6,219 nt of DNA. It comes from an uncultured Lachnospiraceae bacterium (GTDB lineage Bacteria; Bacillota_A; Clostridia; Lachnospirales; Lachnospiraceae). Below the pieces are notes generated by a model, which was not told where the DNA came from, did no database searches, and saw only the letters and a program-made list of their open reading frames with translations. The DNA lies in the NCBI GenBank assembly GCA_947175285.1, contig CAMWMM010000310.1:1-6219 (forward strand). Reading direction: 5' to 3'. This document shows, in pieces, positions 1-6,099 of this stretch (within the stretch, counting starts at the first letter, position 1; each line of letters begins with the position of its first letter). A program made the translations under genes and the position numbers.

Positions 1-33
1 TAGAAAGATAAAAAGGGTTAAGCAGGTAAATAT

Positions 34-720
34 ATGAACGAAGAAACGTTTAAGATTGCGCAGGCAGAGGGGGAACAGACCGGTGGACTGCAGATTAATG
101 TGACCTCGGATATCGGACTTGTCCCAATCAGGAATGCCGTGATTTCCATTTCATATACGGGAACGCCGGAGACAACACTGGAAACATTGGAAACGGATAT
201 ATCCGGGCAGGCGGAGGAGGTACAGCTTTCTGCACCGCCTCTGTCCTACAGCCTGACGCCGGAATCGCCGATGCCGTATTCGGAATATAATGTGACCGTA
301 GAGGCGCCGGGATATGAACCGGTAATGATTTCCGGTGTGGAGGTATTACCGGATGTAACCGCCGTGCAGAATATCCGGATGACGCCGACAGAAACGTCAC
401 AGGGAGCGGAAGAAATTATTACGATTCCCGACCATACACTGTATGGAGATTATCCGCCGAAAATTCCTGAGGATGAAATTAAACCGATGGATGAAACCGG
501 TGAAATTGTTTTAAGCAGAGTTGTCGTACCGGAATATGTTGTTGTGCATGACGGTGTACCCTCCGACAGCAGTGCGCCGAACTACTATGTGAGATATAAG
601 GACTATATTAAAAACGTAGCCTCATCTGAAATTTATGCCACTTGGCCGGAAAGTTCCATTTACGCCAATATTCTGGCGATTCTCTCTTTTACGTTAAACA
701 GGGTATATACGGAGTGGTAG
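34..720 (+). CDS. sleC: SleC-like spore cortex-lytic enzyme, 5' half only (interrupted gene)
   Basis: SleC is the clostridial germination enzyme that degrades spore cortex peptidoglycan after the CspB protease activates its zymogen. This 228-residue product matches the N-terminal half: an Ig-like/carboxypeptidase-regulatory-like beta region at about residues 18-118 (YSEYNVTVEAPGYE, GVEVLPDVTAVQ), the linker HTLYGDYPPKIPEDEIKP (134-151), VPEYVVVHDGVP (165-176), and the start of the SpoIID-like catalytic domain (DYIKNVASSEIYATWPE, 190-206). Glu199 lines up with the SpoIID-type catalytic Glu. Family members are roughly 420-440 residues long, so about half is missing: the rest of the catalytic fold and the C-terminal peptidoglycan-binding part. 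The frame ends at TAG right after TEW, where homologues continue with Tyr. ATG 34 is preceded by an in-frame TAA at 19-21 and only a weak AGG ribosome site at 24-26. The family call is from recalled homologues and is firm; calling it an interrupted rather than a dead gene is inference from the adjacent recombinase. Confidence 0.88.
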   Translation: MNEETFKIAQAEGEQTGGLQINVTSDIGLVPIRNAVISISYTGTPETTLETLETDISGQAEEVQLSAPPLSYSLTPESPMPYSEYNVTVEAPGYEPVMISGVEVLPDVTAVQNIRMTPTETSQGAEEIITIPDHTLYGDYPPKIPEDEIKPMDETGEIVLSRVVVPEYVVVHDGVPSDSSAPNYYVRYKDYIKNVASSEIYATWPESSIYANILAILSFTLNRVYTEW

Positions 721-734
721 GGAAATCACCGCTC
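712..734. other. Predicted recombination junction (attL-like) of a serine-recombinase element in sleC
   Basis: Coding similarity to SleC stops at the Trp codon 715-717. The next codon begins TA, as a Tyr codon would, but reads TAG. This suggests the shared core includes gagtggta (712-719) and that foreign sequence begins by about 720. The junction is also an imperfect inverted repeat: gagtggt (712-718) can pair with accgctc (728-734) with one G-T wobble around a 9-base loop. Partial dyad symmetry is common in serine-integrase attachment sites, but the centre (723) lies right of the predicted crossover, so the symmetry may be incidental. The exact crossover cannot be fixed without the other junction. 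Confidence 0.5.
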
Positions 735-2367
735 ATTCGGGGTAAAAATATTTTCCCGGTATCCGAAAGCAAATCAAAATTTGTTCTTTTGTAACTTCTA
801 TGCGTTCTACCAGCTTGTTGACAAGAACTCTTTGTGTTTCCTTATCTGCTTTGATAAAAACCTCCTGCCATGTCGGCATACGGTATTCTTCCTTTTGCAT
901 TTGAGAGATGCCGGTTTCTTTTTCCTGTATTTGCTTTTCCAGAAAAGTACGTTTCTCTTCGAGCCTGCGGATTGCGGAGGCAGTTTCTTCTATAGATAAT
1001 GCAAAACTCCCGTTTACGGCGTCAGGAATAAATTCCTGCATGGCATAAATATTTTCAGTTGTTTTTGCTATTTCTTTTTGTAATTTTTTCTTTTCTGATT
1101 CCCATATTTTATATTTGTTATCATAATGATGAAAGATAATACCGGAGACGCTTTTTTCTTTTTGCAGCAGTTCAATATGTACTGCGAGACAGTTAAGTAC
1201 AATATTTTCTATTCTGTCGGCGCGAAGCAGGATGTTTGGATGAGACGTGCAGCCGTCCGGAGATGCTTTGCAGCAGTAAGCGCGTATTTTTTTGGAACGT
1301 TTTTCGTTACTGCCTTTTATGTGCCAGTAATGATACTTTGTGCCGTTTGTCATTTTTTTCCCGCAAAGGGCACAGTACATGACGTCAATGAGTGGCAGCA
1401 TACCGTCATTTCTTGCAATAACGCTTACATTCTCTACAGGATAGGCGGAGACTTGCGCATATTTGGCAGCACGCACTTTTCGTTTCTCCTGTGTTTGATT
1501 CCAAAGGGAGGGGGCGATAATCTGTATTTCCTTATTGGGCATATCCGCTTTTATCCAGTCGCTGCTGTCCAGTCTGTGATAACTTCCGTTTATGCGTTCG
1601 CGGCGTTTATAGGCGGTATAACCGGCATAAACAGGGTTTTTTAAAATACTGCTTATGGTGCCTGATTTCCAGGTATCAATGGGAGCTAATGTTCGATAAT
1701 AGTTATTTTCATTTAAAAGCTTTGCAATTTTGACACAGCCTAATTCCAGATGGCAGGAAAGATGATAGATATATTTGACGGCGTCTGCCTGTGCGGGAAT
1801 GATTTCCAGTTTGTGCAGCGCCCGTCCATGCTTGCTGAGCTGTCCGGAATATATCAGGCGGTATCCGTACGGCGCCGTACCGCCCATAAATTTTCCCTGC
1901 CGTATCAGCTTCCCTGCCGTATCCTTTACGCGCATCCCCGTATCGGAGCTGCTTTTTTGCGCATTTCCGTAACGGAGCGCCAGCATCATCTGTCCCATAA
2001 TATCGCTGCTTTCCGGGGAAATACAGCCGTCTTTTACCGTGTAAATATCAACGCCGAAGCTTTTTAAGTGCATGACATAGGCACCGATTTCCCACATGCG
2101 CCTGCCGATTCTGTCATCTTTATAAGCAGCCAGAATATCATATTCATGATTTTCGGCATCAGTAAGCGCTTCCTGCAAAATTTCTCTTTGACTGACAGAA
2201 TTTCTATAGCCGCTGTTACTTCCTTCATAGTATTCTTTTTCGTCCAAAACCCAGTCATTATGTGTTTCTATGTAATCCAAAACAAGGCGGCGCTGTACCG
2301 ATAAATCACCGTCACAGTCCAGCTGTTGATTAGAACTGACCCGTAACAGAATGCGTACTCTTTTCAT
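733..2367 (-). CDS. Large serine recombinase (site-specific integrase/excisionase)
   Basis: A 544-residue recombinase of the large serine family, which cuts and rejoins DNA at paired att sites through a 5'-phosphoserine link. The catalytic domain has RVSS (residues 9-12, nucleophile most likely Ser11), the QRR that follows, and the DDRIGR motif (84-89) with its conserved arginines. A recombinase domain follows (about 160-300, GGTAPYGYR, NPVYAGYTAYKRR), then a zinc ribbon with Cys332, Cys335, Cys365/366 and Cys373. A long coiled coil (about 415-495) follows, as in integrases that control synapsis direction. The start at 2367 is preferred over upstream codons in the same frame because GGAGGA lies 7 bases upstream and the sequence homologous to resolvases begins there. 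It overlaps the upstream 61-codon gene by ATGA, so translation is probably coupled. Its stop lies 12 bases from the sleC TAG and points toward it. No frameshift or lost catalytic residue is seen, so it should be active. SpoIVCA of the B. subtilis skin element is the functional analogue suggested by context, not by proven orthology. Confidence 0.95.
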   Translation of the reverse strand: MKRVRILLRVSSNQQLDCDGDLSVQRRLVLDYIETHNDWVLDEKEYYEGSNSGYRNSVSQREILQEALTDAENHEYDILAAYKDDRIGRRMWEIGAYVMHLKSFGVDIYTVKDGCISPESSDIMGQMMLALRYGNAQKSSSDTGMRVKDTAGKLIRQGKFMGGTAPYGYRLIYSGQLSKHGRALHKLEIIPAQADAVKYIYHLSCHLELGCVKIAKLLNENNYYRTLAPIDTWKSGTISSILKNPVYAGYTAYKRRERINGSYHRLDSSDWIKADMPNKEIQIIAPSLWNQTQEKRKVRAAKYAQVSAYPVENVSVIARNDGMLPLIDVMYCALCGKKMTNGTKYHYWHIKGSNEKRSKKIRAYCCKASPDGCTSHPNILLRADRIENIVLNCLAVHIELLQKEKSVSGIIFHHYDNKYKIWESEKKKLQKEIAKTTENIYAMQEFIPDAVNGSFALSIEETASAIRRLEEKRTFLEKQIQEKETGISQMQKEEYRMPTWQEVFIKADKETQRVLVNKLVERIEVTKEQILICFRIPGKYFYPE

Positions 2368-2549
2368 ATGCTTTCCTCCGGTTCTGCCTGTTCTATTACG
2401 GCTTGCTGCAGAATGTTGTGGATTTCTTCGCGGATTTTCTCCCATTCCTTACTTTGCGCCTCATTCCCCGGCAAAGCATCTGGAAACTGTAGTGTGACTG
2501 CAGGCTGTTTTGAAGAAGTGTCAGCTTGTTGATAAATTATTGCTTTCAT
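2364..2549 (-). CDS. Small protein translationally coupled to the serine recombinase
   Basis: A 61-residue acidic product starting MKAIIYQQ, with LQFPDALPGNEAQ in the middle and a predicted amphipathic helix near the C-terminus (EWEKIREEIHNILQQAV). No membrane segment or cysteine is present. The ATGA overlap with the recombinase start argues that it is a real gene expressed as a unit with it. I do not recognise a named family. Small genes of this size beside serine recombinases can encode directionality factors (SprB of SPbeta is 58 residues) or merely drive translational coupling; either role is inference here. Its own ribosome site is weak (AGGA about 12 bases upstream), and its start codon sits inside a 12-base palindrome. 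Confidence 0.65.
   Translation of the reverse strand: MKAIIYQQADTSSKQPAVTLQFPDALPGNEAQSKEWEKIREEIHNILQQAVIEQAEPEESI
2374..2379 (-). promoter_or_regulatory. Ribosome binding site that sets the recombinase start
   Basis: Read on the minus strand this is GGAGGA, 7 bases before ATG 2367 and inside the last codons (Glu-Glu) of the upstream small gene. It is the strongest Shine-Dalgarno sequence of the minus-strand pair and decides the 544-residue start over a longer frame of 570 codons. Confidence 0.8.
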
Positions 2550-2881: not shown

Positions 2882-4546
2882 ATGAATAACGTTAAAAAAA
2901 GTATGAAAAAAATCATGATAAGGATAGCAGTAATAGCAGTCTTTGCTTTAGCGATAGGCGTATTCCATACTGCTGACAATACCGTACTTTCCGTCGAAGC
3001 GGCAGGCAGACCTGTCAAAATCGACTCTTGCCTGATTTCCGGCGGCAATGTTGTCTGCCAGCTTAGTGCGAGCAGCATTCCATCGAGTGATGACGGAAAA
3101 TTTTACATCTATGCAGATGAAGTATACATGGACGGTCCGACCGGCACCATGGTAGCTTCCGGCGGAGCCGGAACATCGGTTTCTATCAGTTTTCCGCTTA
3201 ATTATAATACGGCACAATCCAATTTGAGCCGTAAGTTTATAGTAGCGGTAAAACAGGGCGGGCACATGGTTCAGGTGAGCGATGAGCATTATATTACGAA
3301 TCCGGAAGCAATTGCGGCATATACATCCGCACGGAAAAATGTAGGCATTAAAGGGATTCTGCCCGATTTAAACAAGGCTTCCAAAGAAGAATTGCAGGCG
3401 CTTGGCATACAGCAGGTTGTTTATAATATAGCCGTTGACGAGATTTGTTCGGATGCTTCCCAGCCGGGATCCATTCCGTTTACTTATAACGGAACGACTT
3501 ACTATTTTAACGGCGGAAGAATGGCAAGTTTTGACTCTATGATAAAAAGCTTGAATGCATACGGCATTCAGGTAACACTCGTACTTTTGAACCGCGGAGA
3601 AGGTGATTTTTCACAGGATTTGATTCATCCGATGGCACGGGACGGCTTCGAATCTCCGGGTTATGCGCTCAATGTGGCGGATGCGGAGGGAACGAATCAT
3701 CTAAAAGCCATTGGTGCATTTTTGGGACAGCACTATTCGGGACAGACAGGATGCGGACAGGTAGATAACTGGATTTTAGGAAATGAAGTGAATGCCCGCA
3801 CGGAATGGTGGTATACAAACTCCACATCTCTTGATTTTAATGTAGGTATTTATGTGAAAGCATTCCGTATCATTTATAATGAGATGAAAGGCATGAATGC
3901 CAATGTGCAGATATACAATTCCATCGATCAGGAGTGGAACAGGAAATCCAATCCGGGAAGTTTCCTTTCCAGAGAATATTTAGACCAGTTTAATTACTAT
4001 ATCAATCGTGAGGGCAATATCGACTGGGGACTTTCTTTCCATCCGTATAATTCACCTCTGTATGATCCATATGCATGGAACGGTCCGGAGGTATGGGTAA
4101 AAGAAAACCTTGCCACACCGTATATTACGATGCAGAATATTGACCTTTTGGTAAATTATATGCACCAGAGCAATTTCTTAAATCCGGCAGGTGAGGTTAG
4201 AAGCATTTCTCTTGCGGAAATCGGCTTTACTTCCAGTTTCGGTACGGAGAAACAAGAGGCTTCCATAGCTTACGGTTATTTGAAAGCGGCTTCGCTTCCT
4301 GATATAGATGCTTTCATGCTGTTTAGACAGACAGACGATGCCCACGAAATGGAAAGTCATTTAGCGCTTGGTTTATATGATTTGAATGGCAATAAGAAAC
4401 CGGCTTATGAGATTTATAAAAATCTCGGCACGGCAAATGAAGCGTCTGCAAAAGCAAGGGCTTCAGAGATTATCGGTATGGATATTGATGAGATGATTAG
4501 TCAGAATATCGTATGGACGAGAAGCGGAACCGGAGTGGTACAATAA
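2882..4546 (+). CDS. Secreted TIM-barrel protein, DUF5722/glycosidase-like
   Basis: A 554-residue exported protein. The N-terminus has lysines (5-10), a hydrophobic core (about 11-28, IMIRIAVIAVFALAIG) and a likely signal-peptidase site near VEAAG (38-42). Residues about 45-140 form a small beta-rich module, followed by a barrel-like catalytic region (about 150-520). That region carries WILGNEVNA with Asn301-Glu302, SFHPYN with His387, and SLAEIGF with Glu446. An Asn-Glu on one strand and a second Glu about 144 residues later are typical of clan-A glycoside hydrolases (acid/base and nucleophile), so a polysaccharide- or cell-wall-acting role is plausible. The assignment to DUF5722 is from memory, and the substrate is unknown. 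ATG 2882 follows gaggag by 5 bases. No LPXTG or C-terminal anchor is present, so it is probably released. It is a single-gene unit with its own promoter, leader and terminator. Confidence 0.8.
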   Translation: MNNVKKSMKKIMIRIAVIAVFALAIGVFHTADNTVLSVEAAGRPVKIDSCLISGGNVVCQLSASSIPSSDDGKFYIYADEVYMDGPTGTMVASGGAGTSVSISFPLNYNTAQSNLSRKFIVAVKQGGHMVQVSDEHYITNPEAIAAYTSARKNVGIKGILPDLNKASKEELQALGIQQVVYNIAVDEICSDASQPGSIPFTYNGTTYYFNGGRMASFDSMIKSLNAYGIQVTLVLLNRGEGDFSQDLIHPMARDGFESPGYALNVADAEGTNHLKAIGAFLGQHYSGQTGCGQVDNWILGNEVNARTEWWYTNSTSLDFNVGIYVKAFRIIYNEMKGMNANVQIYNSIDQEWNRKSNPGSFLSREYLDQFNYYINREGNIDWGLSFHPYNSPLYDPYAWNGPEVWVKENLATPYITMQNIDLLVNYMHQSNFLNPAGEVRSISLAEIGFTSSFGTEKQEASIAYGYLKAASLPDIDAFMLFRQTDDAHEMESHLALGLYDLNGNKKPAYEIYKNLGTANEASAKARASEIIGMDIDEMISQNIVWTRSGTGVVQ

Positions 4547-4616: not shown

Positions 4617-5141
4617 ATGCATAATTATATTTTAGAAACGCAACGACTAATTTTAAGACCTTTGACAGTTGCCGATAGCGACGCTGTATTTCAGTGGGTT
4701 GGTGATGAACGTGTTGCAAGATATATGGTTTACAATACATATACATGTATAAATGAGGTTATAGATTGGCTTACTTCACTCCAAAAGCCAAGTGAAGATT
4801 ATCATTTTGGTTTCGTAAGAAAGGAAGATATGTGTTTAGTGGGAAGCGGAAGTATAGGACCAGATGCAGAAAGAAATGATTACTGGGGATTTGGATATAA
4901 CTTTCGACAGGATTGCTGGGGAAATGGGTATGCAACCGAGGCTGTAAAGGCTATGATGAAATTTGCATATGAATATTTCGGAATTACAAGGTTTTCCTCA
5001 AGTCATGCAGAACCAAATAAAGCATCAGGTCATGTGATGGAGAAATGCGGACTTCATTTTGTAAAATATGGGCAATTTCAAAAATTGGATGGTAGCTGTA
5101 AGATGCGTTCGATGGAATATGAAAATGAAAATTTTAAGTAA
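4617..5141 (+). CDS. GNAT-family N-acetyltransferase (RimJ/RimL type)
   Basis: A 174-residue single-domain acetyltransferase that would move an acetyl group from acetyl-CoA to an amine (protein N-terminus, antibiotic or small metabolite; substrate not predictable). It has the Acetyltransf_3 opening LETQRLILRPLTVADSDAVF (residues about 6-25), a central WGFGYN strand, the acetyl-CoA pyrophosphate loop CWGNGYATEAV, and the C-terminal block NKASGHVMEKCGLHFVKYG. The start at 4617 is chosen because AAGGAG (4602-4607) lies 9 bases upstream; a longer frame begins at 4572 inside the terminator. Only about 18 bases separate the terminator from the ribosome site, leaving no room for a normal promoter, so it depends on read-through or on a promoter overlapping the terminator. 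It is clearly richer in A and T than the gene before it, consistent with separate acquisition. Confidence 0.88.
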   Translation: MHNYILETQRLILRPLTVADSDAVFQWVGDERVARYMVYNTYTCINEVIDWLTSLQKPSEDYHFGFVRKEDMCLVGSGSIGPDAERNDYWGFGYNFRQDCWGNGYATEAVKAMMKFAYEYFGITRFSSSHAEPNKASGHVMEKCGLHFVKYGQFQKLDGSCKMRSMEYENENFK

Positions 5142-5256: not shown

Positions 5257-5516
5257 ATGCAAAAGGTTATCGTCATAGGTTGTTCTGGCAGCGGAAAAAG
5301 TATATTTTCAAAAGCACTTTTATGGAGCGGCTGCACCAAACTTTGGAAAAAGAAACTTATGAATTTGTGGAGTTTATTAAGAATTACAACTCTGTAAGCA
5401 GACCTGCAGTGATGAAATTACTGCACAAATATTCTTACAAACGCATTATCATCTTTAAAAACAGAAGCGATGCTAACGAGTTTCTCTCTCAAATAGTATA
5501 TATTGGAATTTTGTAG
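5257..5516 (+). pseudogene. FlaR/adenylate-kinase-like P-loop NTPase with internal deletion
   Basis: ATG 5257, 11 bases after AAGGAG, begins MQKVIVIGCSGSGKS with a perfect Walker A (GCSGSGKS, residues 8-15), the usual start of small FlaR-like nucleotide kinases. The frame then turns to unrelated residues and stops at 5395-5397. In another frame, from about 5320 to 5516, the typical C-terminus of the same family appears (ETYEFVEFIKNYNSVSRP, KLLHKYSYKRIIIFKNRSDANEFLSQ). Family members are about 170-180 residues, so roughly 100 middle residues (Walker B, lid, substrate site) are gone, with a frame shift at the join near 5318-5325. The two ends being adjacent points to one deletion event. It is non-functional as a kinase. 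The C-terminal piece opens at ATG 5280 but has no ribosome site. Confidence 0.8.
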
Positions 5517-5529
5517 GAGAAAAATCCTT

Positions 5530-6099
5530 ATGAAACATGATATAAATTTAAACATTCATTACTCTGCCCCTGAAGAAGTGTGGGAGAAAATAGATAATAT
5601 ATATAGAACTATGCCATATTGGAGTAAAAAGGATGATTGTCCCCGTTGGGTTGGAGATGATATAGATTTATGGGCGTCTGTTGAACCAAGTGGAATACAA
5701 ATAGCCGGTACAATGCCGGAAAAGATTTGGAATGAGTGGTATAATACTCTTAAAAACAAATTGTCAGAAGCGCTTGGTTATAGCATCGGAGAGCCTGAGG
5801 AAGGGTTTAAATTCAAGTATTGGAAACCATTTGAGAAAAACTATTCAGATATTAAAAGCATTGATGCAAAAGGAATTGTTTTTAATGATTATTCAACATT
5901 TTACTGGGAGCAGTTTGAATATAGAGAAAGAGATATTACGGCTAAACCTCCATATTTTGTATTCAGATCGAAATATATAGAGCTTCGTATATTTTTTGAT
6001 GAAACCGGATTGTTTTCAAAAAGGGAAAATAGACAGAATTTTCTCGATTTTCAAGCAAAACTTACAGCCATTGGGTTGAGTACACGGGATTTGTCATGA
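5530..6099 (+). CDS. Conserved protein of unknown function, 189 residues
   Basis: A soluble, acidic-aromatic protein with no signal peptide or membrane segment. I recall similar hypothetical proteins in gut Firmicutes sharing an opening like NIHYSAPEEVWEKI, then MPYW (about 27-30), WVGDDIDLWASVEPSG (about 40-55), and a C-terminal part with DITAKPPYFVFRSK and FLDFQAKLTAIGLSTRDLS. No function can be named. Its size, its solitary cassette-like setting and its spread among accessory regions would suit an immunity or defence accessory protein, but that is inference. The start at 5530 is preferred over 5503 because AGGAG (5515-5519) lies 10 bases upstream; this ribosome site overlaps the stop of the kinase remnant, so the two were probably once co-transcribed. 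Base composition is AT-rich, like the two genes before it. Confidence 0.75.
   Translation: MKHDINLNIHYSAPEEVWEKIDNIYRTMPYWSKKDDCPRWVGDDIDLWASVEPSGIQIAGTMPEKIWNEWYNTLKNKLSEALGYSIGEPEEGFKFKYWKPFEKNYSDIKSIDAKGIVFNDYSTFYWEQFEYRERDITAKPPYFVFRSKYIELRIFFDETGLFSKRENRQNFLDFQAKLTAIGLSTRDLS

Follow-up and report, generated by a model that had tools for sequence, protein, structure and literature searches.

Why should the gene for a spore cortex-lytic enzyme stop part-way through, a few bases from a site-specific recombinase, and is such a gene dead or could it be put together again? The question is raised by the window analysed here, a 6,219-nucleotide stretch of DNA from an uncultured Lachnospiraceae bacterium, in which an open reading frame on the plus strand (34-720) runs for 228 codons and closes with RVYTEW and a TAG. 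Bases 34-717 correspond to the 5' part of a sleC of 421 codons, intact over codons 1-228 and then cut at YTEW|YR, and only the first bases of the TAG at 718-720 are common to the intact gene; the sleC leader (1-33, plus strand) lies in front, and in relatives a sigmaK-like promoter is found just upstream, a region mostly outside the window. The first-pass annotation had reported that a complete large serine recombinase (LSR) starts within 12 bases of this end. The completeness and the distance are right, but the orientation is not: the LSR (733-2367, 544 aa) is on the minus strand, its coding bases being 736-2367 and its stop codon 733-735, 12 bases past the sleC stop, so that it is the stop codon rather than the start that faces the sleC junction. 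The protein has the Pfam domains Resolvase, Recombinase and Zn_ribbon_recom (the last scoring 25.0 bits, marginally short of the 25.3 required) and clusters with LSRs from the sleC elements of two other genomes, G001 and G002.

Overlapping the LSR start is a 61-aa open reading frame (2364-2549, minus strand), a candidate recombination directionality factor. Farther along on the plus strand are a DUF5722 protein with a hydrophobic N-terminus (2882-4546; PF18989, E 8.9e-131), which recurs in relatives as cargo or as a neighbour of sleC, a GNAT acetyltransferase (4617-5141; PF13302) and a 189-aa protein without a Pfam match at 0.01 (5530-6099), the last two being members of the element only if its right end lies beyond them. 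Between these two, at about 5257-5400, lies what by eye is likely a gene remnant, the beginning of a P-loop (IGCSGSGKS) that quickly drops out of frame. The left attachment site, attL, can be placed approximately at 698-743 from the junctions of 33 elements and from empty sites, and consists of a sleC arm, a core GT at 717-718 and the element arm AAATCACCGCTCATTC. No second copy of the right-hand arm was found in the 6,219-base window with up to three mismatches allowed, so that attR and the 3' half of sleC lie beyond 6219 or have been lost. A second gagtggta at about 4532 was considered as attR and rejected, as it codes for the conserved C-terminus (GTGVVQ) of the DUF5722 protein.

The relatives of this gene are informative. 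A scan with the 228 residues gave at least 597 pattern matches, at least 567 of them confirmed, and the best 80 loci were analysed. The frame had been described from the window alone as intact up to RVYTEW at a point where homologues continue, and indeed 53 of the 80 are uninterrupted to about 421 codons or more. In 26 others the sequence diverges just after RVYTEW, at the window's own codon (site 1), leaving 5' frames of 228 to 300 codons whose length is set by the element side; in one more (L062) the SleC sequence is abandoned near residue 304. That the gene is sleC is best judged from a full-length relative, L010, which matches the 'Spore cortex-lytic enzyme pre-pro-form' (PDB 9h68) with E 1.5e-139 and contains PG_binding_1 (3.3e-15) and SpoIID (0.0013, under its cut-off); it has the features of SleC over its full length, of which the window's half is only a part. 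In L093 (genome G017), where sleC is cut near residue 304, several LSR-like open reading frames are seen, and one LSR frame extends into the 3' part of sleC.

A downstream sleC half of about 200 residues on the same strand had been anticipated, and in the relatives it is there: a 193-codon 3' half was located for 25 of the 26 site-1 loci, in 16 of them on the same contig and strand as the 5' half and in nine on a different contig. For the remaining locus (L072, genome G022), which lies among short contigs, no 3' half was found. When the halves are joined, 23 of 25 sleC1 cases read on in frame for 192-193 codons to the normal stop; in G014 there is a stop 30 codons into the 3' half and in G013 the frame is lost near the end. 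Presumably the window's own genome has a 3' half as well. The split genomes have no second close copy of sleC, and many carry a paralogue, sleC2, that is about 43% identical.

The DNA between the halves has the anatomy of an integrated element. The 16 complete site-1 elements range from 1.36 to 14.2 kb, and 13 contain an LSR at or near an end; the elements of G003 (L003), G019 (L066) and G024 (L075) lack one even when searched with 27 LSR queries. Over all the elements, sizes go down to 1.4 kb, or to 1.9 kb for those with an LSR. In a tblastn search, the window LSR had no match in the available flanks of any of the 53 intact sleC loci; with 26 of 80 loci cut at one codon, this exceeds what chance would give. 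Across 33 element junctions attL reads GGARTGG|T and attR, where visible, G|TA, with GT in all. Four pairs of loci (L018/L017, L022/L023, L004/L005 and L008/L015, 84-96% identical in nucleotides) supply empty sites and display an exact switch from gene to element. The core gagtggta first suggested is longer than these sites allow: in three of the pairs, only 3-4 bases (G|TA or GG|TA) are common to attL, attR and the empty gene, and in the remaining one 13 are. The attP arms of 31 elements are on average more palindromic with their own partner (11.1 of 20 positions) than with those of others (9.6). A small open reading frame with a common V.LQFP/VTVEFP motif precedes 22 of the 26 LSRs whose start is readable (13 were aligned). 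Those of the small proteins that were scanned gave no Pfam or NCBIfam match, and a model, with a mean pLDDT of 64, was too weak for a fold search; the small protein encoded in front of the LSR is probably the directionality factor.

Two kinds of cargo recur. DUF5722 is downstream of the sleC 5' half in the window and in L001, L002, L003, L007, L008, L013, L069, L073, L074, L075 and L078, and it is also near sleC in L012, L015, L034, L036, L046 and L068; the best match of its model (mean pLDDT 68) is to PslG-type glycoside hydrolases. The other is a secreted-looking repeat protein of 354-397 aa, found in L066, L003, L007, L012, L095, L097, L145 and L149, which in L066 (10842-12035) is the sole retained open reading frame of at least 60 aa in an element of 1.36 kb.

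How common are such interruptions? A draw of 100 genomes from the family to which G001 belongs includes 68 with a sleC match: 49 are uninterrupted (including G092, which reaches only residue 400, and G070 and G120, each with a flagged stop), 11 are split, four have ambiguous contig breaks (G077, G100, G102, G124) and four have only weak or paralogous matches. Thus 11 of 60 scorable genes are split, three at codon 228/229 (G068 with only its 3' half visible) and eight at about 291-297, and an LSR is present in all 11, the open reading frame being only 285 aa in G073 and cut by the contig end in G068. In a set of 41 relatives of G001, five have the cut at codon 228 (G001, G006, G007, G014, G015) and one, G162, has it at about 294-301; a second set, 41 relatives of G019, contains nine genomes cut at codon 228 and once more G162 with the other site. 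IMG/VR contributes 13 sleC loci, broken at codons ~291-307 (ten), 172 (two) and 406 (one); among the ten is G135, in which both halves are present, 39 kb apart. LSR matches adjoin the junction in four of the ~291-307 breaks (L137, L138, L140, L141), and a resolvase-like frame adjoins the breaks at 172 and 406, recognised from a match in L132 and L142 and by eye in L144. No relative of the window LSR itself was confirmed in IMG/VR. Taken together, the break positions in the family survey and in IMG/VR indicate that sleC has been hit at no fewer than four sites.

The condition of the split halves speaks to whether they still function. Between nearest neighbours, median dN/dS of the 5' half is 0.042 for split genes (n = 23) and 0.036 for intact ones (n = 49), and for the 3' half 0.021 (n = 21) and 0.024 (n = 43). 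Twenty-four split 3' halves contain no stop, where L062 is represented by a 76-codon piece and G013 and G014 are not included. The split halves are under purifying selection as strong as that on intact genes. Part of the divergence may predate insertion, so that pairs in which element and gene have been inherited together carry more weight. For G001 and G002, LSR dS is 0.21 against sleC values of 0.20 and 0.30, with dN of 0 in the 3' half; for G021 and L073 it is 0.92 against 0.54 and 0.79, with a 3' dN of 0.024. As LSR and sleC have diverged to a similar extent in both pairs, selection has probably acted on the gene while it was split. The LSR of the sleC2 element (see below) likewise keeps pace between G019 and G020, at 0.66 against 0.56 and 0.65 for sleC1.

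Mobility is also evident. In G011, G013 and G015 the LSR dS of 0.04-0.20 is far below that of sleC (0.94-1.57), and hence the element has moved sideways. L092 (G011), L022, L043, L047, L050 and L053 have 39-40 of 40 element-side attL bases identical next to sleC sequences that differ; on this sequence identity, the six species with the G011-type arm represent recent horizontal spread of one element, which is 12 kb in L092. Both long vertical residence and transfer therefore occur. On a FastTree phylogeny of sleC, the split label requires 15 changes, at least 11 of them forced by well-supported branches. The window groups with L001, L002, L003, L007 and L012 (support 88), all split, and the elements within this group differ, carrying an LSR of clade A, one of clade B, or none. 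The metagenome-assembled genomes containing L001, L002, L003 and L011 bear titles (Clostridium, Bacillus, Ruminococcus, Muribaculaceae) at odds with the positions of these loci on the tree, and the titles seem to be misnomers.

We consider it rather probable that the window shows the left end of a gene-intervening element, driven by its LSR, within sleC and, as part of the same proposal, that a skin-like excision switch operates in the mother cell, which is the best reading of the data; we infer the mother-cell timing. In vegetative cells sleC would be cut in its SpoIID-like region, and with the cut at YTEW|YR no whole enzyme could be made. During sporulation the LSR and a directionality factor, probably the small protein, would act in the mother cell, cutting the element out at the GT core and joining the sleC halves in frame; sigmaK-driven transcription of the joined gene would then deliver SleC into the spore, and the forespore germline would retain the element.

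The skin-like arrangement was already the central suggestion of the first-pass annotation, and in the relatives its anatomy, att sites, reading frame and selection hold up; what did not emerge is a sporulation promoter for the LSR. Ahead of sleC, a sigmaK-like pattern (AC-N15..17-CATANNNT[AG]; applied at the sequence level to 80 loci that are related to each other) is seen in 61 of 80 loci, where shuffling gives a mean of 1.0 and at most 3. In C. difficile, sleC is listed among the sigmaK targets (PMC5025042). Before the LSR operon or small open reading frame, the sigmaK pattern occurs in two of 26 cases (shuffle mean 0.63) and is not enriched, and the sigmaE pattern occurs in none of 26 (shuffle mean 0.28); before DUF5722, the sigmaK pattern occurs in none of 13 and looser -10 patterns in three and two of 13. 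Of the 26 split genomes, 23 have spoIVA and 25 have a sigmaK-like gene as a single open frame, scoring below the curated cut-off in every case.

A joined allele also occurs in nature. The protein P0310, from a 1333-base metagenome contig, is identical to the joined sleC product of G019 (28-4) at 343 of 346 residues (76-421), the junction included, and may come from a copy freed of the element by excision or from a strain that does not carry it. Its first five residues, MLFRS, resemble a translated sequencing adapter, and we take them to be probably not natural. The protein collection is reduced to single representatives of 90% clusters, and scoring covered the candidates with the most words in common with the query; among the matches listed, no protein was more than 90% identical to the joined G001 sleC product. 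IMG/VR contained no joined attP of the G011 element that would be the trace of a circle.

Several other accounts of the split gene have to be set against the mother-cell switch. It might be that these are plain insertions, in which phages and small integrative elements use sleC simply as a conserved attB, SleC function being either lost or left to sleC2. The IMG/VR records, broken at three sets of codons, fit this account, as does the recent passage of the G011-type element between species; sleC2 is moreover intact in many split genomes and could cover germination in some. Set against it are the medians of 0.02-0.04 for dN/dS in both halves and the lack of stops, which extend to cases in which LSR and gene have co-diverged, and the expectation that a dead 3' half should decay, as two of 25 may have begun to do. 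Plain inactivation in the relatives is disfavoured, and as an explanation of the locus we judge plain insertion unlikely. It is, we think, distinctly improbable that excision happens without developmental control, the element being lost occasionally in growing cells so that a minority of lineages is germination-competent in a form of bet-hedging. The missing sporulation promoter, the existence of a joined allele in P0310 and the frequent change between split and intact states on the sleC tree would all suit such a scheme, but vertical co-inheritance of element and gene is harder to sustain if the gene is rescued by excision in the germline, and the matches listed include no intact G001-like allele above 90% identity.

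That both halves are conserved could also mean that they are made as separate polypeptides that reassemble, an idea to which we give very little credence as the cut falls within one domain and exactly at the LSR core, the 3' half starts in mid-frame, and the LSR frame of several elements enters the 3' half. Finally, most of the records are metagenome-assembled and nine of 25 pairs of halves are on different contigs, as might result from faulty assembly or binning. An artefact of this kind has a negligible chance of accounting for the same codon in 26 loci, including two (L066, L073) in records not titled as metagenome-assembled; the control gene spoIVA, matched in 65 of the same 100 genomes and in one stretch in 63 (G068 is short at its start and G123 has adjacent pieces), is in two distant pieces in none of the 65.

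The mother-cell switch has precedents, from which the sleC elements differ in several respects. In the skin element of B. subtilis and C. difficile, as here, an LSR element splits a gene of the mother cell, sigK; in C. difficile, according to PMC5025042, excision is by an LSR and a directionality factor whose gene, CD1234, is under sigmaE and SpoIIID. The sleC elements target a germination enzyme rather than a sigma factor, are as small as 1.4 kb, and in 25 of 26 genomes coexist with a sigmaK-like gene that is itself unsplit. SPbeta, whose precise excision rebuilds the spore-envelope gene spsM in B. subtilis (PMC4191935), is a prophage, whereas most site-1 sleC elements are far smaller and the prophage records break sleC at other sites. 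According to PMC5595907, gin in gerE of B. cereus is non-phage, uses serine recombinases with an extra factor, GirX, and has a short shared core; however, gin is 28.6 kb with three recombinases, whereas the sleC elements are mostly small and occur in many species with two LSR clades. According to PMC10747680, yin in yabG of C. botulinum, for which the intact gene and the circle were seen, is prophage-like, was reported as unique to one strain, and had both its integrated and its excised form at every time point; the same paper notes that the YabG protease processes pre-pro-SleC in C. difficile, and that the sporulation gene spoVFB is interrupted in B. weihenstephanensis by vfbin, from which the sleC elements differ in target and host.

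In these texts (PMC4191935, PMC5595907, PMC10747680), the known targets of intervening elements are sigK, spsM, spoVFB, gerE and yabG. The remark made at the outset that sleC is not known as a described target agrees with the open-licence PMC literature, where titles, abstract starts and passages do not name it as one. What appears to be new is the germination-enzyme target, the several LSR clades and sites, the very small units, and possibly a shared control of split paralogues. If the switch is real, programmed DNA rearrangement would govern germination capacity itself, and not just sporulation, in gut commensals that form spores and are carried between hosts by them. Annotation would label sleC as broken in the split genomes, and it probably is not. 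With two LSR clades converging on one codon and further sites in the same gene, there are many independent cases in sleC with which to test why sporulation genes attract elements.

The paralogue adds a further dimension. In six genomes (G003, G019, G020, G022, G024 and G026) sleC2 too is interrupted, at the homologous codon, and each of the six sleC2 elements contains a full LSR, in the same direction as sleC2, preceded by a small open reading frame of the common kind; five of these elements can be followed from end to end on one contig and measure 1.9-3.0 kb, small enough to be cloned whole. No intact LSR was seen in the sleC1 element of these six genomes, where the views of G020, G022 and G026 are incomplete: the three complete sleC1 elements lack an LSR, and G020 has only a relic of 34-43 residues. 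In 16 genomes with sleC2 in one piece, the sleC1 element shows an LSR in every case, although the contigs of G010, G012 and G014 end after no more than the C-terminal part of it, and for four of the one-piece genomes (G139, G141, G142 and G146) this was predicted beforehand and found in all four. Genomes without a sleC2 match (G006, G008, G016, G021 and G025) have their own LSR, as do G005, in which sleC2 is broken elsewhere across two contigs, and G023, in which the paralogue is unclear.

The presence of an LSR in the sleC2 element when none is intact in the sleC1 element suggests that one recombinase system per genome acts on both genes, although kinship among the cases lessens the weight of the count. 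It is tempting to speculate that sleC1 and sleC2, cut at the homologous codon, are served in trans by a single sleC2-borne unit of small open reading frame and LSR, a proposal we put forward tentatively and think somewhat doubtful. The att arms offer a mixed picture, in which the similarity of sleC1 and sleC2 arms is 21.8 of 40 within genomes and 18.25 between them, and an arm's own partner ranks 8, 15, 3, 3 and 4 of 29, where the comparator G058 is out of register. Read-through from the sleC2 promoter could turn on the small open reading frame and LSR in the sleC2 elements. Were the shared unit to prove real, a single developmental recombination system would license the whole cortex-lytic equipment of the spore. 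A different kind of doubling is found in G006, where the sleC1 element (L091) contains two full LSRs, each from a different clade, and looks like one element stacked upon another at a single site.
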